Assembly: GCA_945883495.1 (NCBI GenBank)
Contig: CAMCXS010000030.1
Coordinates: 1 to 62,361 of the forward strand
Direction of reading: 5' to 3'
From: Akkermansia muciniphila
GTDB lineage: Bacteria; Verrucomicrobiota; Verrucomicrobiia; Verrucomicrobiales; DEV007
DNA length: 62,361 nucleotides
Shown in pieces: positions 1 through 58,815 of this stretch (positions within the stretch are counted from its first letter, which is position 1; every line of letters begins with the position of its first letter). The position numbers and the translations under genes are program-made. The notes under the pieces are model-generated. The model was not told the DNA's origin. It was given only the letters and a program-made list of their open reading frames with translations, and did no database searches.

Positions 1-3000
1 ACCGCCGCCGCCGTGGATAATTTTGGCGCCCGCACCGTTTCAGCAGCCATCACCATCACCGCCACGACCAACGCGCCCCCCACCGTCGCCCTGATCGCGC
101 CAGCAAACGAAGAGAGTATTCCCCTCCCCAATCCGGTAAACCTCGCCGCCACCGCTGCTGACACGGACGGCACCGTGGTCAAGGTCGAGTTCTGGCAGGG
201 CTCCACCAAGATCGGCGAAGACGTCGCCGCTCCGTTCAACTTTACTTGGTCCGCGCCTCCCGGCACCTACTCCCTCACCGCCGTCGCCCAGGACAACAAC
301 AACGCCCGCACCACGTCAGCCGCCGTGGCCGTCACCGTGACGAATCGCGCCCCGGAAGTATCGCTCGATACTCCCGCCTCTGGAGCAACCTTCACTCTTC
401 CGAACGTGGTCGAGATTGCCGTCACCGCCACCGACGCCGATAGCGCCATCAGTCGCGTCGAGTTCTTCTCCGGGTCCACGAAGATCGGCCAGGACACCTT
501 CCCACCTTATGCGCTGAACTGGAATCCCACGCCTGGAACCCACTCGTTGACGGCCGTCGCCATCGATGAGCACGGAGCGCAAGGGACCTCCGCTGCCGCA
601 GTGATCACCGTGACCAACCCTCCGCCTGTCGTGGCCATTCTCGACCCGGCTTCCGGTTCCACCATCAACCTGCCCGGCCCATTCACGATCTTGGCCCAAG
701 CTTCTGATCCGGACGGCACCGTGACGAAAGTCGAGTTCTTCGCGGGCAACACCAAGCTGGGAGAGGACAGTTCCGCGCCCTTCACCTTTGGATGGACTCC
801 TATTTCGGGCAGCTACTCGTTGACTGCCACGGCGCATGACAACTTCGGCGCGCGCACCACTTCGGCGCCGGTCGCGGTGACGATCGCCAATCCGAACAAC
901 CTCTCCCCTGCGGTGGCGCTGACGTATCCAACTGACGGCCAGCAGCTCTCCTCCAATTCTCCGATCACCCTGACGGCCACGGCCACGGATTCCGACGGCG
1001 TCATCTCCAAATTGGAATTCTTCCAAGGATCCACCAAGCTCGGTGAAGACCTGACCGTTCCCTACACGTTGGTCTGGCCCGGCGCACCGGCCGGCAGCTA
1101 CCAATTTAGCGTCACCGCGACCGACAACGATGGCGCCATCGTCTCCACTTCTCCCGTTGAGGTCACTCTCCTGGACAACCTTCCCCCCACGATCACCCTC
1201 ACGGCGCCGGCGAATGATCAGAACTTCACCGGCTCCACCGTGGCCCTGAACGCAGCGGCCACCGATGACGATGGCGCGATCGCCAAAGTCGAGTTCTACC
1301 GCGGCACCACCAAGATCGGAGAAGACCTCAGCGCTCCCTTCTCCTTTAGCTGGACCGGAGCGAGCAACGGAGCCCACATCATCTCGGCAGTGGCCACAGA
1401 CGATGATGGCGCCCGTTCCAGCTCTCGCGCCGCGCGGATCACCGTATCCGCGCCGCAAACCCTCACCTTCCAGCAGGGCACCAGCGGATATGCCGGAGCG
1501 CTCGACACCGGGCTACGTGGCGCCGCTCCCTCCACCTCGCTAGCCAGCGCCAGCACCCTCAGCGTGGACGGCAGTGATGGAGGTTCCTCGTCTCAAGCCT
1601 TGCTCCGCTTTGACAGCCTGTTCGGCGCCGCGGCAAACCAGATCCCACCAGGTGCCACCGCCACCAGTGCCACGTTGACCCTGCAGATCATGAATCAGGG
1701 CAGCGGCTTCACCGTGCATCGCATGATCGCGCCATGGTCCGAATCGAGCACTTGGAACTCCTTGGTCAACGGCGTCTCCCCGAACGGAACTGAGGCCGCC
1801 GCCACCCCCGTGACGTCCGTCGGGGCCAACGACAGCAACGCCAACGTTTCCACCGGCAGCCGCAACCTCACCGTCACCTCGGCGGTCCAAGAATGGGCCA
1901 ATGGCGTCGCCAACCAGGGCTTCGCCCTTCTGCCTTATCCTTCGGGCAGCGACGGCGTGGATTTCTACACCAAGGAGTGGAGCAGCGTCACTCAGCGGCC
2001 CAAGCTCAGCGTCACCTTCACCGCGCCACCCCGCGAAACGGCCCCCCTGATCGTGAACGAAGTCTATCGCGGAGCCACCGCCGCCCCAGCGTCCACGGAA
2101 CCCTGGCACGGCGATGACGCGGTGGAGTTCCTCCTCACCCAAGACCTCACCGCCGCAGAACTCATGGCCTACACCTTCGGCGACTCGGATCAGTCCACCG
2201 CCGCGAAAACCACCGCCTGGCGCTTCGAGAACCTCGAAACCATCGCCCCGACCTTCCGCGCCGGAACCTTGATCACCGTCCGCGGAGCCTCTCACCCGCA
2301 AGACCTCAGCTACACCCCGGTCCAGGGCGCCAACGAGGATCAGTGGAATCTCCAATTCTCCGCCGGCGGAGGTCACGTCGTCCTCGCTGAGCGCGCACCC
2401 GAAGCAACCTTTGCCCTGGACAGCCTGAACGAAGTCGTTTGGGTCGATTCCCAACACACCGGACTCACTGACCTCGCGGTCGCCCACGGCCTGGTCTGGG
2501 ATGACCCGCAATCCGGTGGAATCGGTGCCTTCACCTCGTCGGGCAGCAATCTCGCCCTGGCTCACCTCACCGCTCCGGCAGATCAGTCCATCGTCTACTC
2601 CGGCGGCGCCGGACAATTCTTCCAAGGCACCAAGTTCACCAACCCCACGTCTGGGGCACCCTCCCTCGGAGTTCCCAACCCTCAAGGGGACAACGCCGCC
2701 TTCATCGCTCAACTCCGTCAAGCCGGCCCTGGTGACCTCCCCTTGATCACGATGGCCGCCACCGATGCCGTCGCGGGCGAGTTTGGGCCGGACAAAACCC
2801 TCACGTTCCAAATCACCCGCTCGGGTCCCGTGACCAGCGAACTGACCGTCAATCTGAATGCCTCCGGTTCCGCCACCGCCGGAGTCGATTATTCCGGCTT
2901 CACCAGTTCCATGACTCTCCCGGCGAACGCCGCGTCCGCTTCGCTGACTTTGACAGCCATCAAGGACAACCGCCCAGAAGGACCGGAAACCGTCCGCCTG

Positions 3001-3495
3001 TCCATCGCCTCCGGCACCGGTTACGCCGCAGGCTCCCCGGCCGTTGCCGAAGCCACGATTCGGGACCGTCCCGTCCATCATTGGCTCCACCACAAACTTC
3101 CGCCCACTTCCAGCCGCAGGGAACTCTGGGACGACGACGATGATGACGGCGACAGCAACCTTGTCGAATACTTCAAAGGCTCCAGCGCGGGTGATTCCAG
3201 CAGCCGTCATCCGGTTTCGACAATGCCGGGAGTTCACGGGCCCAAGTTCCGCTTTACCCGGGCTCGCGACCTCCCCGACGTGGCCGGCGCCGTCTGCTGG
3301 TCACGTGACCTCGCCAGTTGGTTCCCCAGCGGCGCTACCCATGACGACCTGACCGTGAACTTGGATTACCAGGTCGTCTCCCCGGCCGGTCAAGAGCCGG
3401 AGACCGTGGAAGTCAGTTCCACCCTCTCCGGCGATGCTGCCGCAGCCCCAATCACCCTCTTCTTCCGCCTTGAAGTCACTCCTGTTGAGGAATGA
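1..3495 (+). CDS. Secreted Ig-like/DNRLRE/Calx-beta protein, 5' end missing
   Basis: The frame is open from base 1, so the true start lies outside the window. What remains is an extracellular multidomain protein: the end of one Ig-like repeat, then five full ~90-residue bacterial Ig repeats of the 'KVEFF.GSTK.G.D..' type (about nt 76-1450), a DNRLRE domain (about 1459-2030), a lamin-tail-like region (2041-2500), a Calx-beta domain (2744-3065) and a C-terminal module (3067-3495) with an Asp-rich loop followed by 'WSRDL..W'. From the Ig repeats to the C terminus it closely parallels the M14 carboxypeptidase at 15439-19794, which has a catalytic N terminus. By analogy the missing part here may also be catalytic. 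The next gene starts 25 nt downstream, suggesting an operon. The module assignments are strong; the overall function is unknown. Confidence 0.85.
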   Translation, partial: TAAAVDNFGARTVSAAITITATTNAPPTVALIAPANEESIPLPNPVNLAATAADTDGTVVKVEFWQGSTKIGEDVAAPFNFTWSAPPGTYSLTAVAQDNNNARTTSAAVAVTVTNRAPEVSLDTPASGATFTLPNVVEIAVTATDADSAISRVEFFSGSTKIGQDTFPPYALNWNPTPGTHSLTAVAIDEHGAQGTSAAAVITVTNPPPVVAILDPASGSTINLPGPFTILAQASDPDGTVTKVEFFAGNTKLGEDSSAPFTFGWTPISGSYSLTATAHDNFGARTTSAPVAVTIANPNNLSPAVALTYPTDGQQLSSNSPITLTATATDSDGVISKLEFFQGSTKLGEDLTVPYTLVWPGAPAGSYQFSVTATDNDGAIVSTSPVEVTLLDNLPPTITLTAPANDQNFTGSTVALNAAATDDDGAIAKVEFYRGTTKIGEDLSAPFSFSWTGASNGAHIISAVATDDDGARSSSRAARITVSAPQTLTFQQGTSGYAGALDTGLRGAAPSTSLASASTLSVDGSDGGSSSQALLRFDSLFGAAANQIPPGATATSATLTLQIMNQGSGFTVHRMIAPWSESSTWNSLVNGVSPNGTEAAATPVTSVGANDSNANVSTGSRNLTVTSAVQEWANGVANQGFALLPYPSGSDGVDFYTKEWSSVTQRPKLSVTFTAPPRETAPLIVNEVYRGATAAPASTEPWHGDDAVEFLLTQDLTAAELMAYTFGDSDQSTAAKTTAWRFENLETIAPTFRAGTLITVRGASHPQDLSYTPVQGANEDQWNLQFSAGGGHVVLAERAPEATFALDSLNEVVWVDSQHTGLTDLAVAHGLVWDDPQSGGIGAFTSSGSNLALAHLTAPADQSIVYSGGAGQFFQGTKFTNPTSGAPSLGVPNPQGDNAAFIAQLRQAGPGDLPLITMAATDAVAGEFGPDKTLTFQITRSGPVTSELTVNLNASGSATAGVDYSGFTSSMTLPANAASASLTLTAIKDNRPEGPETVRLSIASGTGYAAGSPAVAEATIRDRPVHHWLHHKLPPTSSRRELWDDDDDDGDSNLVEYFKGSSAGDSSSRHPVSTMPGVHGPKFRFTRARDLPDVAGAVCWSRDLASWFPSGATHDDLTVNLDYQVVSPAGQEPETVEVSSTLSGDAAAAPITLFFRLEVTPVEE

Positions 3496-3520: not shown

Positions 3521-6142
3521 ATGAACACCCGCCTCCTTTTCCTCCCCGTGGCCCTGTGGATCGCCTTCGCCACGCACGGCCATGCTCAAATCCCCGTGAC
3601 AGGCACCTCGCCGATCGTGGAGAACTTCAATTCCCTCTCCTCGCTGCAATTGCCCGCCGGTTGGAAGATGTCAGCTCCGGGGACCGGCTCCAGCGCGGGT
3701 TGGGCGGACAGCGGGAACTTTACCGGACTCTCCCTGGCGCACAGTTCCAACTCTTCAATTCCCACTGCCGGGCGCATCCACTGGACCGGACAGAATGGCA
3801 GCGGAGCCACTGCTTCCGTCGGTTTCTACACCTCGGGTTCCTACTCCGGCCCGAACGCCATTATGGCTCACTTCGTCAACAACACCGAGGAACTGCTCAC
3901 CTCCGTCCGCGTAGTCTACAACGCCCAGCGACGCATCACCAATGCGAGCAGCCAGCCATCCGGCTCCCCCACGTTCGAGTTCTTCTACTCCACCGACGGA
4001 AGCACCTGGACTCCGGTCTCCTCGGGGAACATGGGAGCCTGGAATCCCTTCTATCAAAGCGCGACTCCCGCCAGTGGGACGGTCCTGAGCAGCAGCAATT
4101 TCACGGCGGACGTCTCGGGACTCAGGGTCTTCCCGAACGGCAGCATCTACCTGAAATGGGTCGTCCACACCTTGCACGCCGGCGTCCACTGGGGCTTCGG
4201 CATCGACCAAGCCAGCTTTCAGGTCACCGGCCAGGCCCCCGTCCCGTTCCACTTCTGGCTTGGGGACGACACCACCCGTGGCGGCGCCGGCACCTGGACC
4301 AACACCGGCGGTACCGCATGGTCTGAACAAGATGCCGACGGCAGTCCCGGCGTGCCTTGGAATGCGGCTCGCACCGCGGTATTCGGAGGCAACGAGCCCA
4401 GCCTGATCACCGTCAGCGGCAACGTCGCGGCCAACCTCGGCATGAGCTTCCTCCAGACGGGAACCCTGCTGACGGGAGATGCTTTGCTTCTCGCCGGAGC
4501 CAACCGCACCGCCAACACCCTGTCCGCCGCCGATAGCGTCACGGTCATCGTTGACTGCGATCTGACAGGCACCACTGGGATGACCAAGGCCGGAGACGGC
4601 AGCCTGATCGTCAACCGCCCCTTGACCTACTCGGGGGGAACCGATATCAACGGCGGCTCCGTCATCATCGCCGGTCTGGGCACCTTCACCGGCGGCATCG
4701 GCTCCCTGGGAAGCGGAGATGTTTCCATCGCTTCCGGTGCCACTTTGCTGTTGAGCAACGCCCGCGCCATCGACAACGCCGCCAAGCTCACCCTCGCCAC
4801 CGGCGGCCGCCTCGATCTCGGCTTCGCCTACGGCACCGAGGAAGCCGTCGGCTCCCTGGTCCTCAACGGCGTCACTCAAGCAAACGGCACCTACGGAGCC
4901 ACCGGCAGCGGCGCGGAATTCATCAACGACAATTTCTTCAGCGGCACCGGCCTTCTCCGCGTCGGCACCCCGCCCCCGATTCCCACCTCGCTTCACTGGG
5001 TCGGTAATGACGCCAATCGAGGCGGCGAAGGGGTCTGGAGCAACACCGAGCCTTCTGCTTGGGCCCTCATCGATGCGGACATCCCGGGAACCGCCTGGGA
5101 CATCGCCAAAACCGCCGTCTTCGGCGGAGGTGAAGCCGCCACGGTGACCGTCATCGGCGAACTCGCCGCTAACCGGGGTCTCCACTTCCGCTCCAACGCC
5201 ACCACCATCGAAGGAGATTCGATCTACCTCGGCGGAGCCACTCAGGCCGACAACCGCATCACCATCGAAGACGGAGTGGCTGCCACTCTTGAATGCTCCC
5301 TCACCGGATCCGCTGGCGTGACCAAAGATGGCGCCGGCATGCTGGTCATCACCGGGGGAATGGCCTATTCGGGTGGCACGGCCATCCTCGGAGGAAGCCT
5401 CGCCGCCAGCTCCACCGGCAGCCTCGGCGCTGGGGACGTCACCATCGTTCCCACTGCCAACGACGACTCCTGGCTCATCCTGGAAAATTCCAACGCTCTC
5501 CCGGACGATATCGCGGTTCGCTTGACCTCAGCCACTGGCTATGCCGGCAAGCTCAACCTGGGTTTCGCCTCCAACCTTGAAGAGCGGGTCGATGCTCTTT
5601 ACCTCAACGGTATCGCCCAGGCACCCGGCACCTACGGCGCCGCAGGCAGCGGAGCGGACTTCGTCAACAATTCCTTCTTCTCCGGTCCCGGCCGGCTCCG
5701 CGTCGGCGAGCCCCCGGCTCCAGAACCGGGCTTCTTCACCTGGGCCGCGTCCCTGGGCCTCAGCGCCTCTCCGGACAACGACTTCGACGCCGACGGCCTC
5801 TCCGACGCCCTAGAGTACGTCCTCGGCACGGATCCCAAGCAGTGGAATCTCAGCCCCGTTACCTACCGCGTAGGTCCCAACCAGGAACTCATCCTCTCCT
5901 TTCCCCGCCCCGACGCGGCGGAAACTCCGGACGTGATCATGGAAGTCCATGGCACGGCCGATCCCAAGGTCTGGCCCCTCACCTTCCATATCGCTTCCAA
6001 TTCCATTTCCTCCGATAGCCAAGTCACCATCACCGAAAACGGCGACGCCGACGACCTCGTCACCGTCACCATTCCGAACCCCGACGGGAGTCGCCTCTAC
6101 GGCTGTCTCTGCGTGACCATCAACGCCACCGCCAACAACTGA
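3521..6142 (+). CDS. Autotransporter-associated beta-strand repeat protein
   Basis: Encodes 873 residues from the ATG at 3521, chosen because it begins a clear signal peptide (MNTRLLFLPVALWIAFA...AHGHAQ type, cleavage near residue 23). The frame is open further upstream, but that would bury the signal. Residues ~25-240 form a beta-rich domain of unknown type. Two ~245-residue units follow (about nt 4250-4970 and 4980-5720). Each opens with a 'W.GDD..RGGAGTW' or 'WVGNDANRGGEG' motif and carries the 'T.AVFGG' and 'GMTK.G.G.L....YSGGT' signatures of autotransporter-associated beta-strand repeats. The C terminus (from nt 5723) contains a calcium-loop motif DNDFDADGLSDALEYVLGTD and a final beta domain. 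No autotransporter barrel is present, so export must use another route. It is probably an extracellular or surface structural protein co-transcribed with its neighbours. Confidence 0.85.
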   Translation: MNTRLLFLPVALWIAFATHGHAQIPVTGTSPIVENFNSLSSLQLPAGWKMSAPGTGSSAGWADSGNFTGLSLAHSSNSSIPTAGRIHWTGQNGSGATASVGFYTSGSYSGPNAIMAHFVNNTEELLTSVRVVYNAQRRITNASSQPSGSPTFEFFYSTDGSTWTPVSSGNMGAWNPFYQSATPASGTVLSSSNFTADVSGLRVFPNGSIYLKWVVHTLHAGVHWGFGIDQASFQVTGQAPVPFHFWLGDDTTRGGAGTWTNTGGTAWSEQDADGSPGVPWNAARTAVFGGNEPSLITVSGNVAANLGMSFLQTGTLLTGDALLLAGANRTANTLSAADSVTVIVDCDLTGTTGMTKAGDGSLIVNRPLTYSGGTDINGGSVIIAGLGTFTGGIGSLGSGDVSIASGATLLLSNARAIDNAAKLTLATGGRLDLGFAYGTEEAVGSLVLNGVTQANGTYGATGSGAEFINDNFFSGTGLLRVGTPPPIPTSLHWVGNDANRGGEGVWSNTEPSAWALIDADIPGTAWDIAKTAVFGGGEAATVTVIGELAANRGLHFRSNATTIEGDSIYLGGATQADNRITIEDGVAATLECSLTGSAGVTKDGAGMLVITGGMAYSGGTAILGGSLAASSTGSLGAGDVTIVPTANDDSWLILENSNALPDDIAVRLTSATGYAGKLNLGFASNLEERVDALYLNGIAQAPGTYGAAGSGADFVNNSFFSGPGRLRVGEPPAPEPGFFTWAASLGLSASPDNDFDADGLSDALEYVLGTDPKQWNLSPVTYRVGPNQELILSFPRPDAAETPDVIMEVHGTADPKVWPLTFHIASNSISSDSQVTITENGDADDLVTVTIPNPDGSRLYGCLCVTINATANN

Positions 6143-12070: not shown

Positions 12071-12352
12071 TCACACAGGACGCGTTCCCTTGCATTCGGG
12101 ATAGCGGGTGCCCCCCCAGAAGTCCCCGCGGGCCGAAGATCGTTTCCGCATAGGTTGGGCGCATTGCGGGCACGGAGGAGCCTCACCTTGTCCCCGCTCC
12201 TCGGAGCGCGCCCGGTCCATCCGTTCCTTGAATCCCCCTTGGGCCACAATATAGCGCTTGCAGAAGCTGATCGTCCCCAGATGGATGATCATCGCAAACT
12301 TGAATGAATGAAGCCGGCGGAAACCACCACTGGCATGATAAATCCGGCTCAC
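12071..12352 (-). pseudogene. Internally deleted four-helix-bundle suffix / zinc-ribbon protein remnant
   Basis: The minus-strand frame encodes 93 residues. Its first ~30 (SGGFRRLHSFKFA...FCKRYI) look like the N terminus of 'four helix bundle suffix domain' proteins (S23-ribosomal-protein/intervening-sequence-like fold). It then jumps to sequence typical of the end of that family: GGFKERMDRAR and a zinc ribbon CPQCAQPM...FWGG.RYPECKGTRP. Intact members as I remember them are more than 200 residues, so most of the helical bundle is missing while the frame is kept. The zinc ribbon is also damaged: the usual WGC is WGG here. The frame overlaps the first 45 nt of the beta-helix gene on the other strand. 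Most likely a decayed accessory gene; a functional minimal version is less likely. Confidence 0.6.
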
Positions 12353-15300
12353 GGCGTGACGCTAAAGCCACCATCCGCCCTATGTCCAACCGTCATACCT
12401 AAGCCCCGCGCGTCCCTCCATCACCCAGTCATCGCCGCCTTCTTCCTCATCCTTCTCGTCTCCCACACATCCGCCGCCACATACCAAATCGCCAACCAAT
12501 CGGACTTCAACACCCGCCGGACGGCCACCTACAGCCCGGGTGATGAGATCCTCTTCCGCCGTGGCGCCATTTTCACCGGAATGTTTGCCCCGCGCGGCAG
12601 TGGCACGTCCGCCGCTCCCATCCGCATCGGGACCTACGGCACCGGCAATCCCCCCATCATCAACGCCCTCGGCGCAAACCAAGCCGCCATCCTCCTCAAG
12701 AACGTGGAGTATTGGGAGATCGATGGCATCGAAGTCACCAACACCAACGGCACCACCGCCGACCAGGGCGAGATCTTCGGCATCTATGTCCTCATCGATT
12801 CCACCGCCAAGACCGTCCTCAGCCATTATCACATCAGCAACTGCTACGTCCACGACGTCAACGGCAACACCGGCATCCGTTACCGCGGCGCCATTCACGT
12901 CCACGCCCTGGACACGCTCGGTAACGCTCCCTTCCGCCTCGACGATGTTCGCATCACCGGGAACACCATCGAGGACTGCGGCGACGTCGGCATCGGCAAC
13001 CGATCCAGCTATGTTGATCTCCCCAACGGCAACGTCGCCCAGCTCTGGACCAACGTCTACGTCGCCCACAACTACATCGCCCGGACCGGCCGCAACGGCA
13101 TCATCTGCCGGGTCAGCAAAGACGCCGTCTACGAATACAACACCCTCGCCGAGACCAGCCGCCACTCCACCGGGCACAGCCTTTACAACTTCGAGACCTC
13201 CGGCTTTATCGCTCAGCACAACGAAGCGTTCGGCAATATAGGCACCGGCTCGGTCGATCGGGGAGGCTTCGATGCGGACTACAACTCCGAGAACACCACG
13301 TTCCAATACAACTACAGCCACGACAACCGTTGGTTTATGGGCATCATGTGCCGCTACAACAAAGGCGTCATCATTCGTTACAACATCAGCCAAAACGAGA
13401 CCGAGGGCATCTATTGGTATGGCTTCGACGATGAATCCCTGCTCGAAAACGTCGTGGTGCATAACAACGTCCACTTCACCAGCTCCTCTCTCCCCGGAGT
13501 TCTCTTCAACGCCGGGAACCGCCGCCCCCGCAACACCACGTTCCTCAACAATATCTTCTATTTCCAAGGCACCGGCGCTTACGGATCCCTGGCCGGCTCC
13601 GGTGCCAATGTCTCCTTTCGCCACAATCTCTATTATAATATCCCCATCTGGCCCCACGGCGGCGACACCGGCGCCCGCACTTCCGATCCCCGCTTCGTCA
13701 ATCCGGGACAGGGCGGCTCCGCGATCGATATGACCGATCCCAACCGCCTCTCCGGCTATCGCCTCCAGTCCAGTTCTCCCTGCATCGACGCCGGCACCGC
13801 GTTCGCCGGGGTCACCAGGGACTTCTGGGGCCAACCCGCTCCGGCTGGATCCGCCCTCGACATCGGCGTCTTCGAACACCAACCCGCCGCAAACCTTCCC
13901 CCCACCGTCACGCTCACCTCCCCAGCAAACGGTTCCTCCGTCACCCTCCCCGCCGCCGTCTCCCTTTCCGCCACCGCCGCGGATTCAGACGGCTCCATCG
14001 CCAAAGTCGAGTTCTACGGAGACGGCGCTAAGCTTGGCGAAGACGCCGCCGCCCCTTTCACCTGGACCTGGAACGCCGCCGCCGGAAACCACACCGTCTT
14101 CGCCATCGCCCAGGACAACACCGGCGCCCGCACCACCTCCACCACCCACTCCGTCACCGTCCTCCCCGCCCCCAACCTTCCCCCCACGGTCACCCTCACC
14201 TCCCCAGCAAACGGTTCCTCCGTCACCCTCCCCGCCGCCGTCTCCCTCTCCGCCACCGCCGCGGATTCCGACGGCTCCATCGCCAAAGTCGAGTTCTACG
14301 GAGACGGCGCCAAGCTCGGCGAAGACGCCACCGCCCCTTTCACCTGGACCTGGAGCGCCGCCGCCGGGAACCGCACCGTCTACGCGATTGGCCAGGACAA
14401 CTCCGGCGCCCGCACCACCTCCGCCGCCACCCACTCCGTCACCGTCCTCCCCGCACCCAACCTTCCCCCCACCATCACCCTCACCTCCCCGGCAAACGGT
14501 TCCTCCGTCACCCTCCCCGCCGCTGTCTCCCTCTCCGCCACCGTCGCGGATTCCGACGGCTCCATCGCCAAAGTCGAGTTCTACGGCGACGGCGCCAAGC
14601 TTGGCGAAGACGCCGCCGCCCCTTTCACCTGGACCTGGAACGCCGCCGCCGGAAACCACACCGTCTTCGCCATCGCCCAGGACAACACCGGCGACCGCAC
14701 CAGTTCGGCCTCCCACGCCGTGAACGTTATCTCCCCCGGCAGCAACGCCCCACCCATCGTCACCCTCACCGCCCCGCTCCCCGCCGCCCGCATCCCCACT
14801 CCCGGACGGATCGACTTCGCCGCCGCCGCCTCGGACTCGGACGGCGCCATCCTGCTGGTCGAGTTCTTTGCCGGTTCCACCAAGGTCGGCAGCGACACCA
14901 CCGAGCCGTTCAGCTTTGTCTGGTTCGCCCCCTCGGGCACCCATTCCCTCACGGCGGTCGCCTTGGATGACGATGGGGCCCGCTCCACGTCCGCCGCCGT
15001 CCCCGTGACCGTCGGGAGACCGTTCGACTTCTGGATCGCCGATGAATTGCCCGGCTCCTCCCAACTCGCCACCAACGAGGATCCCGACGACGATGGCGCC
15101 TCCAACCTCCAAGAATACTTCCAAGGCTCCGACCCCGGCCTGCCCGATAGCCGATTGCCGATCGTCGCCCAAGAAGCTCCCGGCGCAACCCGTCAGGTCC
15201 ATTTCCGCCGCGCCAAGAACCGCACCGGAGCCACCGGACGCCTCCTCTGGTCCCGGGACCTCACCACTTGGCACGAGAGCGGCGCCACCTCCGGAGACCT

Positions 15301-15442
15301 CACCGTTCAGCTCTCCGAAACCGTCCTCTCCGGCCCTGCGGAAGATCCCGAGCTGGTCGAGGCCACCGCCACCCTCTCCGGACCCGTCGCCGCTCTTCCC
15401 CATCGCCTCTTCTTCCTCCTCCGTGTCAGCCTCGCCCCATGA
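12308..15442 (+). CDS. Secreted right-handed beta-helix protein with Ig repeats
   Basis: Encodes 1044 residues from ATG 12308. ATG 12335 is an alternative. Neither gives an ideal signal peptide, since the hydrophobic stretch (VIAAFFLILLVSHTSAA) begins near residue 41. Residues ~60-520 form a parallel beta-helix, rich in 'N.I.....Y....N' turns and Asn ladders, like pectate-lyase-fold polysaccharide-binding or -cleaving proteins. No family-specific catalytic set could be assigned. Three almost identical Ig repeats follow (13892-14735), then a divergent fourth, and a C-terminal module with DPDDDGASNLQEYFQGSD and LLWSRDLTTWHESGAT. The stop codon overlaps the ATG of the carboxypeptidase gene (ATGA), so the two are probably translationally coupled. 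The likely role is binding or processing a polysaccharide outside the cell. Confidence 0.85.
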   Translation: MKPAETTTGMINPAHGVTLKPPSALCPTVIPKPRASLHHPVIAAFFLILLVSHTSAATYQIANQSDFNTRRTATYSPGDEILFRRGAIFTGMFAPRGSGTSAAPIRIGTYGTGNPPIINALGANQAAILLKNVEYWEIDGIEVTNTNGTTADQGEIFGIYVLIDSTAKTVLSHYHISNCYVHDVNGNTGIRYRGAIHVHALDTLGNAPFRLDDVRITGNTIEDCGDVGIGNRSSYVDLPNGNVAQLWTNVYVAHNYIARTGRNGIICRVSKDAVYEYNTLAETSRHSTGHSLYNFETSGFIAQHNEAFGNIGTGSVDRGGFDADYNSENTTFQYNYSHDNRWFMGIMCRYNKGVIIRYNISQNETEGIYWYGFDDESLLENVVVHNNVHFTSSSLPGVLFNAGNRRPRNTTFLNNIFYFQGTGAYGSLAGSGANVSFRHNLYYNIPIWPHGGDTGARTSDPRFVNPGQGGSAIDMTDPNRLSGYRLQSSSPCIDAGTAFAGVTRDFWGQPAPAGSALDIGVFEHQPAANLPPTVTLTSPANGSSVTLPAAVSLSATAADSDGSIAKVEFYGDGAKLGEDAAAPFTWTWNAAAGNHTVFAIAQDNTGARTTSTTHSVTVLPAPNLPPTVTLTSPANGSSVTLPAAVSLSATAADSDGSIAKVEFYGDGAKLGEDATAPFTWTWSAAAGNRTVYAIGQDNSGARTTSAATHSVTVLPAPNLPPTITLTSPANGSSVTLPAAVSLSATVADSDGSIAKVEFYGDGAKLGEDAAAPFTWTWNAAAGNHTVFAIAQDNTGDRTSSASHAVNVISPGSNAPPIVTLTAPLPAARIPTPGRIDFAAAASDSDGAILLVEFFAGSTKVGSDTTEPFSFVWFAPSGTHSLTAVALDDDGARSTSAAVPVTVGRPFDFWIADELPGSSQLATNEDPDDDGASNLQEYFQGSDPGLPDSRLPIVAQEAPGATRQVHFRRAKNRTGATGRLLWSRDLTTWHESGATSGDLTVQLSETVLSGPAEDPELVEATATLSGPVAALPHRLFFLLRVSLAP
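13892..14735 (+). repeat. Three near-identical ~283-bp direct repeats inside the beta-helix gene
   Basis: Units start at 13892, 14174 and 14459 (282 and 285 bp apart, i.e. 94 and 95 codons). Each encodes one Ig-like domain. They match almost base for base, including synonymous positions, which points to recent duplication or gene conversion. The 3-bp difference is one extra Ala codon. Confidence 0.9.
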
Positions 15443-18400
15443 AAAAGCTTCGCCTCATCCTCTTCGTCTTCGCGATGGTCCTGGCCGCCTCCGCCGCCGT
15501 CCTCGTCAACCAGCCTGCGGCCGAGCCCTTGCAGGACGTCCCCACGGATCCCGTCGTCGCCATCCTTGCTTACTCTGACCGCGAGATCCTCGCGGAGCTG
15601 GCCACCCGGATCGATATCTGGGAGACCGATCCCGTTCGCGCCGAGGCCGTCGTCCTCCTCTACCCGGACCAGTGGGAGTTCGTCCGCGGTTTCGGCATCG
15701 AGCCCCGCATCGATCCGGAGCGCACCGCCGCCATGGGAGAAGCCGGCACCCTCGGGATTTCCGGGTATCCGTGTTACCGCACCGTCACCGAAACCTACGC
15801 CTCGCTCGATCAGATCGTGGCCACCTATCCCGGCCTGGCCCGGCTCGAGACCATCGGCTCCAGTTGGGACAAACTCCGCGCCGGCGGCCCGGCGGGCCAT
15901 GACCTAAAAGCCCTCGTCCTCGGAGGTGCCGCCCCCGGTTCCATTCCCAAGTTCCGCTTCTTCCTCATGGGCGCGATCCATGCCCGGGAGCTCACCACCG
16001 CGGAGCTCGCCCTCCGCTTTGCCGAAGAGTTGCTCGCCGGCTATGGCACCGATCCCGACGCCACTTGGCTCCTCGATTACGGCGAGCTTCACGTGATCCC
16101 CATCGCCAACCCCGACGGCCGCCTCTTCGCCGAGACCGGCCTGAGCTGGCGCAAGAACACAAACACCGATCCCGGTTGCACCACTTCCACCTATGGGATC
16201 GACCTGAACCGCAACCACAGCTTCAAATGGAACACCGGCGGCTCCAGCGGTGTCGTCTGCGATCTCACCTACCGCGGCACCTCCGCCGGTTCCGAACCCG
16301 AAACCCAGGCCCTGGAGAATTACATGCGCTCCATCTTCACCGACCAGCGCGGCCCCAACGACGGCGATGCCGCTCCGGCCGATGCCACCGGCCTCATGAT
16401 TTCCCTGCACAGCTACAGCGAGCTGGTCCTCTACCCGTGGGGGAGCACTTCCTCTCCCGCGCCCAACGAATCCAGCCTTCGCATCCTCGGCCGCAAGTTC
16501 GGCTTCTTCAATCGCTACGATGTCACCCAATCCATCGGCCTCTATCCCACCAGCGGCACCACCGATGACTGGGCCTACGGCACCCTGGGGATCGCCGCTT
16601 ACACCTTTGAACTCGGCACCGCCTTCTTCCAAAGCTGCGCCACGTTCGACAGCACCATCCGGCCCAACAACCTGCCCGCCCTCTGGTATGCCTTCAAAGC
16701 CGCCCGCCGCCCGTACCAAAGCCCCGCCGGTCCCGATGTCACCGTCGTCAGCGCTTCCCCTCCTGCCGTCTATCCCGGTCAGCCGGTCACCATCAGCGGC
16801 ACGGCGGACGATACCCGTTCCTTCGATGCCAGTGGCGGCGGCGAACCCGCCCAAACCATTTCCGCCATCCGCGCCTCCCTTGCCGATCCCTCCTGGGTCA
16901 CCGGCAGCACGCTCCCCCTCACGCCATCCGGTTCCGCGACCACCGTCCGCTCCTTCAGCGGTTCCGTCCCCACCGCCGGGTTGCCCAAAGGCCGCCACCT
17001 CGTCTTCGTCGAAGCCCAAGACTCCGCCGGGAACTGGGGCGCGCCCACCGCCACCTTCATCGAGATCCTCGAAGACCCCAATACTGAGCCCACCGTGGTC
17101 CTCACCAGCCCCACGCCCGGCCAAATCATTCCTCTGCCCAACCCCGTCCTCCTCTCCGCCTCCGCCGCCGATCCCGACGGCTCCGTCACCAAAGTCGAGT
17201 TCTACGCCGGTTCCACCAAACTCACCGAGGACACCGCGCCGCCCTACACCTATTCCTGGTCCGCCACTCCCGGGGCCTACACCGTAACCGCCATCGCCCA
17301 CGACAACGAGGGCGCCACCACCACCTCCGCCCCGGTGTCCTTCACCGTGAGCAACGCCGCCCCTTCGGTCACCCTCACCGCTCCGCTTTCCGGCACCACG
17401 GTCTCCCTGCCCAGCACCGTTGAACTCGCCGCCTCCGCCACGGATTCCGATAGCGCCATCGCCAAGGTCGACTTCTTCGCCAACAGCAGCCTCATCGGCA
17501 CCGACCCCAGCCCGCCCTACACCTTCACCTGGTCCGCCGCGCCGGGCAGCCATACCCTCACCGCCGTGGCCGAAGATCAATTTGGCGCCCGCACCACCTC
17601 GGCCCCCGCCACCATCACCGTCCTCAATCCCGCTCCCAACGTCTCCCTCACCGCCCCGGCGAACGGCGCGCTCTTCGAGTTTCCCGTCACCCTCAGCCTC
17701 ACCGCCGCCGCTTCGGATCCAGACGGCTCCGTCGCTCTCGTCGAGTTCCGCGCCGGCGCTATCCCGTTGGGCACCGACTCCTCCCCGCCGTTCACTCTGC
17801 CGTGGTCGCCCCCGATCGGTTCCCACAGCCTGACCGCCATCGCCCAGGACAACTTCGGTGCCCGCACCACATCCTCCCCGGCTACGGCCATCACCGTGGT
17901 CAACGAGGTGAAAGACCCGCCCACGATCGCGATCAGCTCCCCGGTCACCGGCCAACCGCTTTCCGAGGGCACCATCCCCATCAGCGTGACCACTTCGGAC
18001 CCCGATGGCTCCGTCGCCAAGGTCGAGTTCTTCTCCGGCCCCACCAAACTCGGCGAAGATCTCTCCGCTCCCTTCTCCTGGTCCTGGACCGGCGTCGTCC
18101 CGGGGGATTACCTCCTCACCGCCCGCGCCACGGACAATGACGGCCTCACCGCCACCTCCGCTCCCATCGCCCTCACCGTCGTCGCGAACCTCGCCCCCAC
18201 CATTGTCCTCACCGCGCCCACCCAAGGCGCGGCTCTCACCGGCGCCAGCACCACCCTCCGCGCCACCGCTTCGGATGCCGATGGCTCCATCGCTAAGGTC
18301 GAGTTCTTCGAAGGCGCATCCCGCCTCAGCACGGACACCTCCGCGCCCTACGAATTTCTCTGGACCCCCGTCTCCGGCGGCTTCCACACCGTGCACGCCG

Positions 18401-19794
18401 TGGCCACCGACGACGCCGGCGCCACCGCCACCAGTCCCGAGGTGACCTTTTTCATGCGCACCCCCGCCACCCTCACCTTCCAGCAGGGACTCAACGGCTA
18501 CACCAGCGCCCTCGATACCGGCCTGCGCGGGGCCGCCCCCAGCTCCAACCTCGGGGCCGGATTCACCATCAACGTCGATGCCGATGACGCCGCCTCGCCC
18601 AGCCAAGCCCTCCTCCGCTTCGACAACCTCTTCGGCTCCGGCGCCGCCCAAATCCCCTTCGGCAGCACCATCGATAGCGCCACCCTCGGCCTGCAAATCT
18701 TTAACTCCGGCAGCGGCCTGCGCGTTCACCGCATGCTCACCGCTTGGACCGAAAGCAGCACCTGGAACAGCCTCGTCTCCGGCGTGCAGCCAGACGATGT
18801 CGAGGCCGATTCCTCCCCAGTCGGCACCTTGGGCGCTGACAGCGCTTCGGCAAACGTCTTGACCGGCGCCCGCACCGTCACCGTCACCTCCACCGTCCAG
18901 TCCTGGGGCAACGGTGCCCAGAATCACGGCTTCGCCCTCCTGCCCTTTCCGGCGGGCACCGATGGCTTGGAATTCTATTCCAAGGAATGGAGCTCCTCGT
19001 CCCAACGCCCCAAGCTCACCGTCACCTTCACCGCCCCTGCCCCAGCCCAAGTCAGCATCGCCGCCGAGGATCCCTTGGGCGCGGAGTTCGGCCCGGATTC
19101 AACCCTTCGGTTCACCGTGAGCCGTTCCGGAGACACCGCCACTCCGCTTTCCGTCCCACTCGTCGCCCGAGGCTCCGCTCTTCCCGGCCATGACTATTCC
19201 GGTTGGCTCTCCACTCTCACCCTGCCCGCCGGAGTCAACTCCGCGTCCCTCGACCTCACCGTCCTGCCGGACCAGCTCACCGAGGGCCCCGAAACCCTCC
19301 GCGTCGCCCTCGGCTCCAGCGCCGCCTTCCTCCCCGCCTCCCCGGGCTACGCGGAAGGCACCATCGCCGACCGGCCCCTCTCCGCCTGGCTCCACGGCCA
19401 ACTCCCGCCAAATTCCCCCTCGCGCGGTCTCGCCGATGACGCCGATGGCGATGGCGATCCCAACCTGGTGGAATACTTCAAAGGCACCCGCGCCGGAGAT
19501 CCCACCAGCCGCGACTTCCTCCAGGCCGCCTCCCAAACCGGCACCACCGCCAAACTCCGTTTCCGCCGCGCCAAGGACCGCCCCGACGTCACCGGCACCG
19601 TCTGCTGGTCCCGGGACCTGCAAACCTGGCACCCCAGCGGAGCCACCGACGGCGACCTCACCGTCACCCTCACCACCGCCGTCATTTCCACCCCCGGTGA
19701 TGATCCGGAGACCGTCGAAGCCACCGCCCTCCTCACCGGTCCCGCCGCCACCGCCGCTCCCGTGATCTTCTTCTGCCTCCAAATCACCCCGTGA
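15439..19794 (+). CDS. Secreted M14 zinc carboxypeptidase with Ig, DNRLRE and Calx-beta domains
   Basis: Encodes 1451 residues from ATG 15439, which overlaps the previous stop (ATGA) and begins a signal peptide (MKKLRLILFVFAMVLAASAA). The frame is open upstream but that is not used here. The M14 domain (about 105-430) shows the zinc ligands His181 and Glu184 in HARE, His324 in SLHSYSE and the catalytic Glu391 in FELGT. NPDG and DLNRNHSFKW substrate-pocket motifs are also present. It should remove C-terminal amino acids from peptides outside the cell, complementing the S8 protease in the same gene run. Five Ig repeats, a DNRLRE domain (about nt 18470-19032), a Calx-beta domain and the shared Asp-loop/WSRDL C-terminal module follow. 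The part after the catalytic domain is paralogous to the protein ending at 3495. Confidence 0.93.
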   Translation: MKKLRLILFVFAMVLAASAAVLVNQPAAEPLQDVPTDPVVAILAYSDREILAELATRIDIWETDPVRAEAVVLLYPDQWEFVRGFGIEPRIDPERTAAMGEAGTLGISGYPCYRTVTETYASLDQIVATYPGLARLETIGSSWDKLRAGGPAGHDLKALVLGGAAPGSIPKFRFFLMGAIHARELTTAELALRFAEELLAGYGTDPDATWLLDYGELHVIPIANPDGRLFAETGLSWRKNTNTDPGCTTSTYGIDLNRNHSFKWNTGGSSGVVCDLTYRGTSAGSEPETQALENYMRSIFTDQRGPNDGDAAPADATGLMISLHSYSELVLYPWGSTSSPAPNESSLRILGRKFGFFNRYDVTQSIGLYPTSGTTDDWAYGTLGIAAYTFELGTAFFQSCATFDSTIRPNNLPALWYAFKAARRPYQSPAGPDVTVVSASPPAVYPGQPVTISGTADDTRSFDASGGGEPAQTISAIRASLADPSWVTGSTLPLTPSGSATTVRSFSGSVPTAGLPKGRHLVFVEAQDSAGNWGAPTATFIEILEDPNTEPTVVLTSPTPGQIIPLPNPVLLSASAADPDGSVTKVEFYAGSTKLTEDTAPPYTYSWSATPGAYTVTAIAHDNEGATTTSAPVSFTVSNAAPSVTLTAPLSGTTVSLPSTVELAASATDSDSAIAKVDFFANSSLIGTDPSPPYTFTWSAAPGSHTLTAVAEDQFGARTTSAPATITVLNPAPNVSLTAPANGALFEFPVTLSLTAAASDPDGSVALVEFRAGAIPLGTDSSPPFTLPWSPPIGSHSLTAIAQDNFGARTTSSPATAITVVNEVKDPPTIAISSPVTGQPLSEGTIPISVTTSDPDGSVAKVEFFSGPTKLGEDLSAPFSWSWTGVVPGDYLLTARATDNDGLTATSAPIALTVVANLAPTIVLTAPTQGAALTGASTTLRATASDADGSIAKVEFFEGASRLSTDTSAPYEFLWTPVSGGFHTVHAVATDDAGATATSPEVTFFMRTPATLTFQQGLNGYTSALDTGLRGAAPSSNLGAGFTINVDADDAASPSQALLRFDNLFGSGAAQIPFGSTIDSATLGLQIFNSGSGLRVHRMLTAWTESSTWNSLVSGVQPDDVEADSSPVGTLGADSASANVLTGARTVTVTSTVQSWGNGAQNHGFALLPFPAGTDGLEFYSKEWSSSSQRPKLTVTFTAPAPAQVSIAAEDPLGAEFGPDSTLRFTVSRSGDTATPLSVPLVARGSALPGHDYSGWLSTLTLPAGVNSASLDLTVLPDQLTEGPETLRVALGSSAAFLPASPGYAEGTIADRPLSAWLHGQLPPNSPSRGLADDADGDGDPNLVEYFKGTRAGDPTSRDFLQAASQTGTTAKLRFRRAKDRPDVTGTVCWSRDLQTWHPSGATDGDLTVTLTTAVISTPGDDPETVEATALLTGPAATAAPVIFFCLQITP

Positions 19795-19847: not shown

Positions 19848-20468
19848 ATGAGAAGATTGGCTCGCCCGCCATTCGCCCAAGAAGTGCTTGGCTTCTCCAA
19901 CTCAGGCCCCATCGCTGCGTTTCCGTGTCTTCCGTGGTTCCCCATTCTCCTTTGTCCCACCGCCGTGCTCGCCGCCATCCTGCTCCTCATCGGCCACACC
20001 GCCGCTACGGAGGAAGCCATTCACGCCGAAGAGCTCGCCCTCCACGAAGCCCGCCACCGCGCCCTCGTCGCCGTCCATTTCGCCCAAACCCACGGGATCA
20101 CCTTGGCCGAAGCCGATTGGCACCGCGAGATCAACGGCGAAGTCCCGGCCGAGCTTCTCCGCACCCGCGCCCTCGCCTCCGCCCAACGCGACCGCGCCAT
20201 CCAACGCCTCGCCCAAGCACACGGAGTCGGCCAACCCCTGCCCTTTCCGGGCTTCGCAGCCCACCTCGAAGCCGTCAACACCGCCCGCCGCCAAGCGAAG
20301 GCCCAAGCCAATGGCCAACCCATCTACGGCCGGATCGAATTCACCCCCTGGCAGCTCTACCGCTACGAAGTCGACAACCTCCGCCTCCGCCTCCAAGCCA
20401 AGTTCCGCGAAACCGAACCCACCGACGAAGCCGCCCAAGCCAGAGTGGAAGCGGCCCTGCGCTCGTAG
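19848..20468 (+). CDS. Membrane-anchored helical protein, SurA-N-like (hypothetical)
   Basis: Encodes 206 residues from ATG 19848. GTG 19965 would give 168 residues starting just before the hydrophobic segment VLAAILLLIGHTA. One N-terminal membrane segment is followed by a charged helical domain with ITLAEADWHREINGE and FTPWQLYRYEVDNL segments. This resembles the chaperone part of SurA-type peptidyl-prolyl isomerases, but no PPIase domain is present. It lies 53 nt after the carboxypeptidase gene on the same strand and could assist secretion of those large proteins; that is inference. The first ~38 residues come from unusual sequence and may not be translated. The stop codon TAG is formed by the first bases of a REP-like element. 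Confidence 0.6.
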   Translation: MRRLARPPFAQEVLGFSNSGPIAAFPCLPWFPILLCPTAVLAAILLLIGHTAATEEAIHAEELALHEARHRALVAVHFAQTHGITLAEADWHREINGEVPAELLRTRALASAQRDRAIQRLAQAHGVGQPLPFPGFAAHLEAVNTARRQAKAQANGQPIYGRIEFTPWQLYRYEVDNLRLRLQAKFRETEPTDEAAQARVEAALRS

Positions 20469-20527
20469 CGGAACGGCTTCCCGTTCCCAATTCTCCTCAT
20501 CACCCGCAGAGCGAAAACCCTTCGCTC
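20465..20527 (+). repeat. REP-like element, copy 1 (second arm degraded)
   Basis: Begins GTAGCG followed by the hairpin GAACGG-CTTC-CCGTTC. The second arm is degenerate (gagcgaaaacccttcgctcc). It overlaps the stop codon of the preceding gene and lies 87 nt before the Rpn-family start. Confidence 0.7.
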
Positions 20528-20614
20528 CATCTCATCCTGCAGCGCAGACGCCGCCCCGACTCCCCCCGCCACCCACCCGCTTGCCCACCCACCACGAGGA
20601 GCTATGTTGTCCCC

Positions 20615-21469
20615 GTGAACCGTTTCCTCGATCCCCGGAGCGACCTGGTCTTCAAGCGCATCTTCGGCGAGCACCCGGAGATTCTGCGCAGCTTCCTCAA
20701 CGCGGTCTTGCCTTTGGAGGAAGGCGGGGAGATTGAGAGCTTGGAATACCTTCCCTCCGAGCAGGTGCCGGTGTTGCCGCTGCTCAAGCGCAACATCGTG
20801 GACGTCCGTTGCCGGGACGCCGCCGGGCGTCATTTCATCGTGGAGATGCAGATGAACTGGACCGGCGCGTTCCTCCAACGGGTGCTGTTCGGCGCCAGCC
20901 AAGCGTTCGTGCGCCAGCTGGAAAAAGGGGAGGACTATGCCCTCCTTCAGCCGGTGATCGGCCTCAGTCTTCTCGACGATATCTTCGACCGCGACAACGC
21001 GGACACCTACTACCACCACTACCGGATCGTCAACGTGGAGAACCCCCGGAGAATCATCGAGGGGTTGCAACTGGTGTTCATCGAGCTGCCCAAATTCCGC
21101 GAGGACCATCCCCAGGCGGCGCGGCGCTTGCGCTGGGCCTGGCTCCGCTTTTTGCGGGAGGCAGGGGACGCGGGCTCCCCCGGACACCCCACTCCGGAGC
21201 AGCTCACGGCGGAGGTAGGGCTGACCGAGGAACTGCGCGACGCCCTGGAGATTTCCCTGCAAAGCGCCTTTACGCCCGAGGAGCTGGCCGCCCACGATCG
21301 CTTCTGGGACGCGGTGCGCAGCGAGCGGACGCTGATGAACGGCAAGCTGGCCGAAGGCATCGAGATCGGCGTCACGCTCGGGCTGCAACAAGCCCTGCAA
21401 CGCCTGAGAGCCACCGGAATGGACGAAGCGGCGGCTCGTGAGGTTCTCGGGATGACGGAGATTGAGTAA
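20615..21469 (+). CDS. Rpn-family PD-(D/E)XK nuclease / transposase-like protein
   Basis: Encodes 284 residues from GTG 20615. The frame is open far upstream, but homologous sequence starts at NRFLDPRSDLVFKRIFG, and GAGG at 20596-20599 is a plausible though distant ribosome site. The protein matches the Rpn/PF12784 type (recombination-promoting nuclease, YhgA-like). It has the N-terminal 'DP..D..FK.IFG' motif and a PD-(D/E)XK core with Asp63 (NIVDVRCRD) and Glu77-x-Gln79 (FIVEMQM). A variable C-terminal helical tail contains a 'G...G...GL' segment. Family members are DNA nucleases that stimulate recombination, or relics often found in many copies per genome. It is flanked on both sides by REP-like elements in the same orientation. 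Confidence 0.88.
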   Translation: MNRFLDPRSDLVFKRIFGEHPEILRSFLNAVLPLEEGGEIESLEYLPSEQVPVLPLLKRNIVDVRCRDAAGRHFIVEMQMNWTGAFLQRVLFGASQAFVRQLEKGEDYALLQPVIGLSLLDDIFDRDNADTYYHHYRIVNVENPRRIIEGLQLVFIELPKFREDHPQAARRLRWAWLRFLREAGDAGSPGHPTPEQLTAEVGLTEELRDALEISLQSAFTPEELAAHDRFWDAVRSERTLMNGKLAEGIEIGVTLGLQQALQRLRATGMDEAAAREVLGMTEIE

Positions 21470-21861: not shown

Positions 21862-22611
21862 TCACGTCGCCCCGGCCGCTTTCGCCTCCGCTTCGGCGTC
21901 CTTGGCCTCGCGGGTCTGGCGCGCTTGCACCGGCGCGGTCAGATCCTTGATGATCTCGTTCAACTTCGTCAGCAATCCGGACGTCTCGGTGCTTGGGTTG
22001 AGCCTCTCCATCTCCGCCGCCACGTCCACGAGCAGATTGAGGCGTCGCTTCAACGCCGGCACCCTCTCCCGCAGCGCCGGCACCTCAGCTCCCGCCGATG
22101 GCGCGGACTTCTGATCCCAAATGCGTTCAAACTCCGCTTGCGCCGCCGCGAGCCGTTGGCAGGAAGCTGTCAGCCCCAGCGCTTCCAGGTCCTGCCGGGA
22201 ACTGTCCGATCCCAAATCCACCAATAGCGCCCCCAGCAAGCCGGTCTCTACCATGTATCCGGTCCGGTGCAGGGTGTTCCCATGCTTGCCGAACACCGCC
22301 CGGAGCCGCCCGCCCGCTTCCCGTTGCGCCGCGCTCGCCGCCCCGTTCTTCGCCCAAACCCCCACGAAATCACGCAACGTCGTGAAGGCATTTTCCCGCG
22401 CCTCATCCGCCAGCCGGATCGGATCCGTCAACTCACTGCCCAACTCACGCCCCGCAGCCTGGTGAATCCCCGCCTTGTCGACTCCAGACGCCTGTGCGAT
22501 CGACTGCAACACCGGATTGCCATCGAAAAGCCGCTCCAAAACCGGCAAAACCCGCTCAGCAGCGGCGGTGAGTTCCTCATTGGCCAGGTGACTTGTAATG
22601 AGTGTGTCCAT
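21862..22611 (-). CDS. DUF6261-like protein
   Basis: Encodes 249 residues from ATG 22611. The frame extends to 22683, but the MDTLITSHLANEELTAAAE start fits the family better. It is all-helical, without signal peptide or membrane segment. The segments 'LTDPIRLADEARENAFTTLR', 'GGRLRAVFGKHGNTLHRTGY' and 'LLTKLNEIIKDL' resemble DUF6261 proteins, known mainly from Bacteroidota and with no established function. The Ala-rich C terminus (AKDAEAEAKAAGAT) is probably disordered. It faces the Rpn-family gene convergently across a repeat region, which fits accessory DNA. The family call is moderate. Confidence 0.65.
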   Translation of the reverse strand: MDTLITSHLANEELTAAAERVLPVLERLFDGNPVLQSIAQASGVDKAGIHQAAGRELGSELTDPIRLADEARENAFTTLRDFVGVWAKNGAASAAQREAGGRLRAVFGKHGNTLHRTGYMVETGLLGALLVDLGSDSSRQDLEALGLTASCQRLAAAQAEFERIWDQKSAPSAGAEVPALRERVPALKRRLNLLVDVAAEMERLNPSTETSGLLTKLNEIIKDLTAPVQARQTREAKDAEAEAKAAGAT

Positions 22612-22724
22612 CTCGTGTATCGACTGCTGTTTCTCTTCCTCAGCAACACCCTGACACAAGCGCATCCGATGACCATCCTGCATTGCGTGACAACTTCGTC
22701 ACCTTTGCGTTCCTTCCCCTCGCT

Positions 22725-58417: not shown

Positions 58418-58815
58418 GAAGTGAAGGCAGGGGTTTCGAGAGAGCTTCCCGCCCCCGCCCAGCTTTCGGACCAGATTGATGGCCCTTACCGGGGCTGCGC
58501 GGCGTTCCAGCAGAGAGCAAGCACACCGAGCCGCTCGCATAAAGATCTCCCGGACGGCGGCCTCCACTTTCTCAGGCGGCCAGTCCGGATGCCGGTGCCG
58601 GAGAGCCGCTGCTTTCAGATTGCGGGCGCTCTAATAAAGGTAGATCGCCGTCTGCCATTTCTGGGCCGGAGTGAGCCGCACGGAGGGGCCGTTGACCGGA
58701 GCCTTGGGCGAAGTTTGTTAGGTCCCATTCATGAATCGTAGCGGACCTTACCCCCAGGTCGGCCAGAATCATACCAAAGCTTGCCAAATCCGCCCGAATC
58801 GCCACGATTTCCCCC
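58418..58815. other. Divergent intergenic region
   Basis: About 400 bp between the sulfatase operon (minus) and the DUF1080 gene (plus). No gene is convincing. It should hold promoters for both. TTGACC at 58692-58697 is a possible -35 for the plus strand but the -10 is poor. ATTCATGAAT (58727-58736) is a perfect 10-bp palindrome. Confidence 0.4.

Follow-up and report, generated by a model that had tools for sequence, protein, structure and literature searches.

A C-terminal domain family of exported proteins in Verrucomicrobiota with the architecture of a possible sorting or surface-retention tag

The window (the whole stretch of DNA analysed, 62,361 nucleotides) encodes a series of proteins that end in the same type of domain, here called the tail. 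The genes and features concerned are as follows.

1–3495: protein whose 5' end is cut by the contig start, with five Big_7 repeats, DNRLRE, and Calx-beta upstream of the tail
3061–3492, + strand: tail domain of the 1–3495 protein (alignment, profile)
3133–3168, + strand: Asp-rich loop DDDDDGDSNLVE of this tail, with a D1, D3, D5, E12 pattern (read from the sequence)
3521–6142, + strand: PATR-repeat (autotransporter-associated beta strand) protein with signal peptide MNTRLLFLPVALWIAFATHGHAQ
5723–6139, + strand: tail domain of the 3521–6142 protein (profile, positions 18–130 of 132)
12308–15442, + strand: protein with a right-handed beta-helix and four Big_7 repeats, starting at 12308 or 12335
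15014–15439, + strand: tail domain of the beta-helix protein (alignment, profile)
15080–15115, + strand: Asp-rich loop DPDDDGASNLQE of this tail (read from the sequence)
15439–19794, + strand: M14 zinc carboxypeptidase with five Big_7 repeats, DNRLRE, Calx-beta, and signal peptide MKKLRLILFVFAMVLAASA
19366–19791, + strand: tail domain of the M14 protein (alignment, structure model)
19438–19473, + strand: Asp-rich loop DADGDGDPNLVE of this tail (read from the sequence)
19546–19788, + strand: predicted Ig/FN3-like beta sandwich of this tail (pLDDT mostly 82–95)
23336–30160, + strand: giant secreted protein containing YDG and FN3, likely start MNPTTARFF
29696–30157, + strand: tail domain of the 23336–30160 protein (profile, positions 3–130 of 132)

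The M14 gene starts at the ATG at 15439 and overlaps the stop codon of the beta-helix gene by four bases (ATGA, 15439–15442), suggesting translational coupling of these two tail-bearing genes. Directly after the tail genes lie a PD-(D/E)XK-family transposase-like ORF (PF12784) and a DUF6261 ORF, at 19925–21469 and 21862–22683 (−). A sulfatase encoded elsewhere in the window (56669–58567, − strand) has no tail by profile, so not every sulfatase here bears one.

An earlier note on this DNA had claimed that the C termini of three of these proteins align throughout, and an end-to-end alignment was indeed found, with 46–56% identity among the tails and with the motifs described for them present in all three. 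The tails at 15014–15439 and 19369–19791 shared 47% and 56% identity, respectively, with the first (3067–3492), and a search of the genome from which the window derives returned the three tails with E-values of 1e−96 (self), 1e−44, and 1e−28. The same note took the upstream parts to be unrelated, and here the comparison contradicted it. The 1–3495 and 15439–19794 proteins are homologous over ~900 residues (two aligned stretches of 671 and 248 aa, with 54% and 52% identity, respectively), having Big_7 repeats, DNRLRE, Calx-beta, and the tail in common; Big_7 repeats also occur in the beta-helix protein. With two of the three proteins homologous, differing cargo is a weak argument inside the window. 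The proteins ending at 6142 and 30160, described earlier as having a diverged last domain, both match the family profile over most or all of its length (E about 1e−13 to 1e−15), although neither was in its training set, and they are thus ordinary members of the family.

The tail is one folded domain family of roughly 110–140 residues, located at the end of hundreds of unrelated exported proteins across the phylum, for which there is so far no Pfam or NCBIfam model. A first profile (A1) recovered weaker relatives in the window's own genome (G000) as well as in 41 of 57 related genomes, and a 41-member alignment built from these (A2) gave a profile of 132 positions. The A2 consensus runs W....F, then D-x-D-x-D-G-x-x-N-L-x-E-Y-x-x-G-x-x-P, followed in the second half by R....D....E.S.DL..W and a final F-x-R-L-x-V. 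G000 encodes about 24 full-length copies, extending beyond the loci in the window, and of 285 genomes sampled across the phylum, 186 had at least one tail (profile, E ≤ 1e−6). At most 14 candidates were scored per genome in this sample; when more were scored, 70 copies were found in genome G098 and 149 in G153. A pattern scan of genome contigs yielded only one Chthoniobacteraceae locus, its patterns being too specific. When the 41 tails were scanned against Pfam-A and NCBIfam (E ≤ 1), no model covered the domain; those that touched the loop were mainly TSP3_bac and Amuc_1099. A solved structure was sought by sequence and none was found, the profile matches in the PDB being EF-hand loops; likewise, a literature search with few subscription journals within reach found no paper describing the tail. 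Searches of plasmids and phages by tblastn with the tail, and of viral contigs with the A1 alignment, returned nothing. DNA patterns picked out a few tail-bearing contigs filed as viral (IMG/VR; L229, L232, and L233), in whose ORFs the domain lies close to the N-terminal end (at 44–194 of 211 aa in L232, for example).

The position of the domain within its proteins was highly regular. Terminal position was not built into the profile search; the loci outside G000 were the strongest matches, and G000 itself was searched whole with no choice of loci. Among 108 full-length copies, 106 ended within 15 residues of the stop codon (95 within 5 residues), where uniform placement would give 4.4, and none of the 108 occurred twice in one protein. 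The earlier note had asked whether the domain is often internal; the full domain almost never is (2/108), and both exceptions occur in G000, where 22 of 24 full-length copies are terminal. In one of them (L128), a signal peptide is followed by the tail and then by TSP3-like repeats, and in the other (L134), a diverged copy lies close to the N-terminal end of a 2381-aa frame. In L121, L126, L136, and L137, the Asp loop alone was matched internally, and these partial matches look like TSP3-type spacers.

A signal-peptide-like start was found in 82 of 99 complete tail ORFs, compared with 94 of 207 neighbouring ORFs, as called by a simple heuristic rather than by SignalP. About seven of the 17 heuristic-negative tail ORFs have a clear signal peptide by eye, and several of the remainder look like frameshifted or truncated frames. 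The idea that the tail is always borne by proteins with signal peptides is therefore correct for most of them but not for every one. An apparently standalone tail (L215) and several short ORFs were discounted as probable fragments produced by frameshift or truncation, and the small proteins L039 and L046 consist of little beyond a signal peptide and a tail.

Nor is the tail confined to Ig-repeat proteins, another possibility that had been raised. In 60 tail proteins, we found 47 Pfam families (E ≤ 1e−5), none of them in more than 7 proteins; they include Calx-beta, GSDH, BACON, subtilase, laminin G, BNR, FAD oxidoreductase, and M10, and the cargo further includes sulfatases, sialidase, GH18, GH85, PL8, and many others. 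The upstream parts had no detectable homology in 415 of 441 within-genome pairs and in 5205 of 5337 between-genome pairs.

Structure prediction pointed to one compact fold, a matter on which the earlier note had looked for an answer. The AlphaFold2 model of the M14 protein's tail (10 sequences; mean pLDDT 83.7, pTM 0.73) has a helix at residues 5–12, the Asp loop, a helix at 33–39, and the strands of a beta sandwich within 61–141. A canonical relative was modelled with the same plan (pLDDT 76); in both runs, such confidence was reached in the best of five models only. Foldseek and VIA placed the sandwich among cytokine-receptor FN3 and Ig domains (best Z of 6.0 and 7.1, rmsd of about 3 Å, 81–85 residues), values of Z below 8 that may reflect a common arrangement and are no proof of kinship; a T9SS-type CTD was not among the VIA matches listed. 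The tail is thus predicted to comprise a short helix with a conserved Trp, the Asp loop, a second short helix, and an Ig/FN3-like sandwich. Its last strand, F-x-R-L-x-V, ends the protein, and the Asp loop is usually of the calcium type. However, 13 of the 108 tails have two or fewer acidic or Asn ligands at the four positions scored. Asp5 and Lys12 occur together in 11 of these 13 ligand-poor tails, which come from several families, suggesting that an Asp5–Lys12 salt bridge may take the place of calcium. Calcium binding was rejected as the essential function, since the ligands are lost in these 13 tails and in nearly all of the listed tails of an Akkermansia-like genus (g19) while the domain persists.

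Genus g19 belongs to the same order as G000, has genomes of 2.2–3.5 Mb, and gives a strong Amuc_1099-family match; we infer that it is Akkermansia. The members examined carry 1–8 tails each, the cargo including a BNR sialidase, a PA14-containing sulfatase, a GH18 protein, and a POMP-repeat protein, and a BACON domain lies directly upstream of the tail in four of the g19 proteins scanned. Tail identity averaged 53% between different cargo in one genome and 80% for the same cargo across genomes, indicating that the module was apparently on many cargo before the g19 species split and has not been recently homogenised. The tail end FLRLKVTR(E) is nearly invariant on unrelated cargo, and all but one of the g19 tails listed are without loop ligands 1, 3, and 12 (PAGDG..NLMKY). 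The portions of the 2011 genome paper of A. muciniphila that concern C-terminal BACON domains name Amuc_0953 and Amuc_2164, and in those portions the tail goes unmentioned beside BACON (PMC3048395). As far as that text describes them, the two proteins fit a sulfatase and GH18 pair in G157, and we offer the assignment of the Amuc_2164 GH18 protein and the Amuc_0953 sulfatase to the G157/G047 loci as a lead.

We propose that the tail is a cargo-independent C-terminal sorting or surface-retention tag, a reading to which we give an even chance of being right. The strict C-terminal position, the single copy, the varied Sec cargo, and the conservation of the last strand are more in keeping with C-terminal reading of a tag than with a free binding or stabilising domain. 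Tail proteins would be taken through the inner membrane by Sec, lose their signal peptide by cleavage, and then fold in the periplasm, where an envelope component would recognise the C-terminal domain and either pass the protein over the outer membrane or hold it there. Such a scheme would be similar in logic to that of the T9SS Ig-like CTDs, with a different reader, and the calcium loop would act as a structural staple; recognition by a machine, its reader, and the outcome of export or anchoring are the conjectural elements of the scheme. The figures that speak for it are the terminal position of 106 of 108 copies, the signal-peptide frequencies (82/99 vs 94/207), the 47 Pfam families, and the occurrence in 186 of 285 genomes. 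Several points weigh against it: no reader was identified among the machineries tested (T2SS and exosortase), some genomes have only one tail protein, which would be an odd economy for a dedicated system, and the internal copies L128 and L134 occur in G000 itself. In g19, where BACON is just upstream in several proteins, the shared module may be BACON plus tail, and an FN3-like fold would also be expected of a plain structural or binding domain. The earlier claim of a sorting or anchoring signal therefore stands as far as architecture is concerned (terminal position, signal peptides, cargo diversity, and one predicted fold) and lacks a clean match to a machinery.

The tail might instead be a non-covalent binding or adhesion domain for polysaccharide of the cell surface or the environment, comparable to a CBM or BACON, which we regard as unlikely. 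The predicted sandwich fold, the many polysaccharide-active enzymes and lectin-like domains among the cargo, and the adjacency to BACON in the Akkermansia-like genus are all consistent with it. Binding modules are commonly internal, N-terminal, or repeated, whereas the tail is terminal in nearly every copy and never duplicated, and its cargo also includes non-glycan proteins (subtilase, M10, M14, GSDH, and FAD oxidoreductase). That enzymes are thereby kept at their substrate or on the cell, the C-terminal place being a habit and not a matter of recognition, seems improbable to the same degree.

Equally hard to favour is a passive end cap, that is, a calcium-stabilised FN3-like domain that shields the C terminus of large extracellular proteins and is read by nothing; a role as an aid to folding or protease resistance is similarly improbable. 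The Asp loop with the FN3/Ig-like fold, the large secreted repeat proteins among the bearers, and the fact that no tested machinery tracks the tail exclusively agree with such a cap. On the other hand, it is not obvious why a cap would need a single family across a phylum on proteins of differing size and kind, or a last strand that hardly varies between unrelated cargo, and the small proteins composed of signal peptide and tail (L039 and L046) also speak against it.

As a special case of the sorting reading, the tail could be a specific T2SS export signal, a structural feature by which folded substrates are chosen; this is less probable still than either of the two preceding alternatives. Full-length GspD (E ≤ 1e−60) was found in 108 of 110 genomes with at least 9 tails and in 111 of 175 others, an association whose Fisher P values are overstated because related genomes are not independent, and which one or two lineages drive, GspD being near-universal in the rest of the phylum. 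G000 encodes a T2SS locus in which E, F, G, K, and D were identified, and examination of three f8 genomes without GspD detected no tails. Conversely, GspD is present in 56 genomes without a detected tail, and the tail-bearing g19 genomes, with their 1–8 tails, have no full-length GspD, only partial secretin matches. The locus in G000 (C4:101000–119000, L236) carries T2SS E, F, G, a pseudopilin-like gene, K, and D; next comes an ORF of 997 aa, which begins in a different frame within the end of the gspD ORF. The association with exosortase, which is not needed, was about as strong as that with GspD, at 106 of 110 genomes with at least 9 tails, and yet no match to TIGR02602 (E ≤ 1e−10) was found in G000, G151, G267, or G273, each with at least 9 tails. 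Since G000 is without exosortase despite the strong association, such associations prove little, and exosortase is ruled out as the tail reader for this genome. A search for SprA gave 0 of 41 genomes, the control genomes being silent too. As to whether the tail tracks a secretion gene set, then, T2SS correlates with abundant tails, but none of the sets tested tracks it cleanly.

The remaining alternative, that there is no module and the tails are held in common through descent from one ancestor by duplication, is true of the window pair homologous over about 900 aa and is already refuted for the family as a whole by the mostly non-homologous cargo across the phylum, which leaves it next to no credence.

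If the tail is a sorting tag, it would allow a one-step listing of surface and secreted proteins in a phylum with large secretomes (Akkermansia and polysaccharide degraders) and would point to a secretion or anchoring route not known so far. With only a structural or binding role, it would still be a family that neither Pfam nor NCBIfam includes and that is present in the majority of the sampled genomes. In Akkermansia, it makes the way in which some mucin-degrading enzymes reach the mucus a testable question. A wider proposal, of which we are doubtful but which merits statement, is that of an unnamed, phylum-wide sorting route in Verrucomicrobiota, with a folded C-terminal Ig/FN3-like address tag on up to about 150 proteins in a genome, among them mucin-active enzymes in Akkermansia-like bacteria, and with a reader that would be neither T9SS, exosortase, nor a strictly canonical T2SS.

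Of the known systems, the CTDs of the T9SS (TIGR04183 and TIGR04131) resemble the tail in being C-terminal, in their length of about 80–140 residues, in their Ig-like sandwich, and in occurring in many copies per genome on unrelated Sec-exported cargo. The T9SS CTD has been described as a compact Ig-like 3+4 beta-sandwich (PMC11285876), and the feature that the tail has in common with it is a predicted C-terminal Ig-like sandwich on unrelated Sec cargo. Unlike these CTDs, the tail has an extra Trp helix and Asp loop, and neither TIGR04183 nor TIGR04131 matched in the NCBIfam scan of the 41 tails (E ≤ 1). The T9SS itself has been described as confined to some Bacteroidetes (PMC5445135). PEP-CTERM (TIGR02595/TIGR02602) is likewise a C-terminal signal on many secreted proteins in the same phylum, with 23 predicted PEP-CTERM proteins in A. 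muciniphila (PMC4960237). It consists of a short PEP motif, a TM helix, and a basic cluster, whereas the tail is a folded domain; no PEP-CTERM model matched in the scan of the 41 tails, which end in F-x-R-L-x-V plus a few residues, and G000, in contrast to a PEP-CTERM system, combines about 24 tails with no exosortase match.

The Asp loop is of the same type, by its pattern, as the loops of TSP3_bac (PF18884) and of EF-hand and dockerin domains. PF18884 matched 4 of the 41 tails at E ≤ 1 (best 4.6e−6), the agreement of pattern being judged by eye; the window protein P0002 scored 14.8 bits against it, under the 25-bit cut-off, and a profile search of the PDB with the tail landed on the EF-hand loops of calmodulin. 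The dockerin model PF00404, which has paired loops, gave no match in the scan of the 41 tails (E ≤ 1), and the loop of the tail is single. A link to the Amuc_1099 family was considered because NF042425 matches 16 of the 41 tails, and it was rejected, the pilus-like protein sharing the Asp loop only. In the Amuc_1099-family pilus-like proteins L237, L241, and L246, the same Asp loop (DDDSDGFTNREEY, DPDGDGFSNLEEF) is set in other surroundings. What sets the tail apart from TSP3 and EF-hand domains is a single loop joined to a specific C-terminal sandwich. FN3/Ig-like domains, of which no Pfam FN3 match was found among the 41 tails, are similar in fold, and the 'Y.VE.S.DL..W' motif resembles FN3 usage; the tail differs from them in being almost always terminal.
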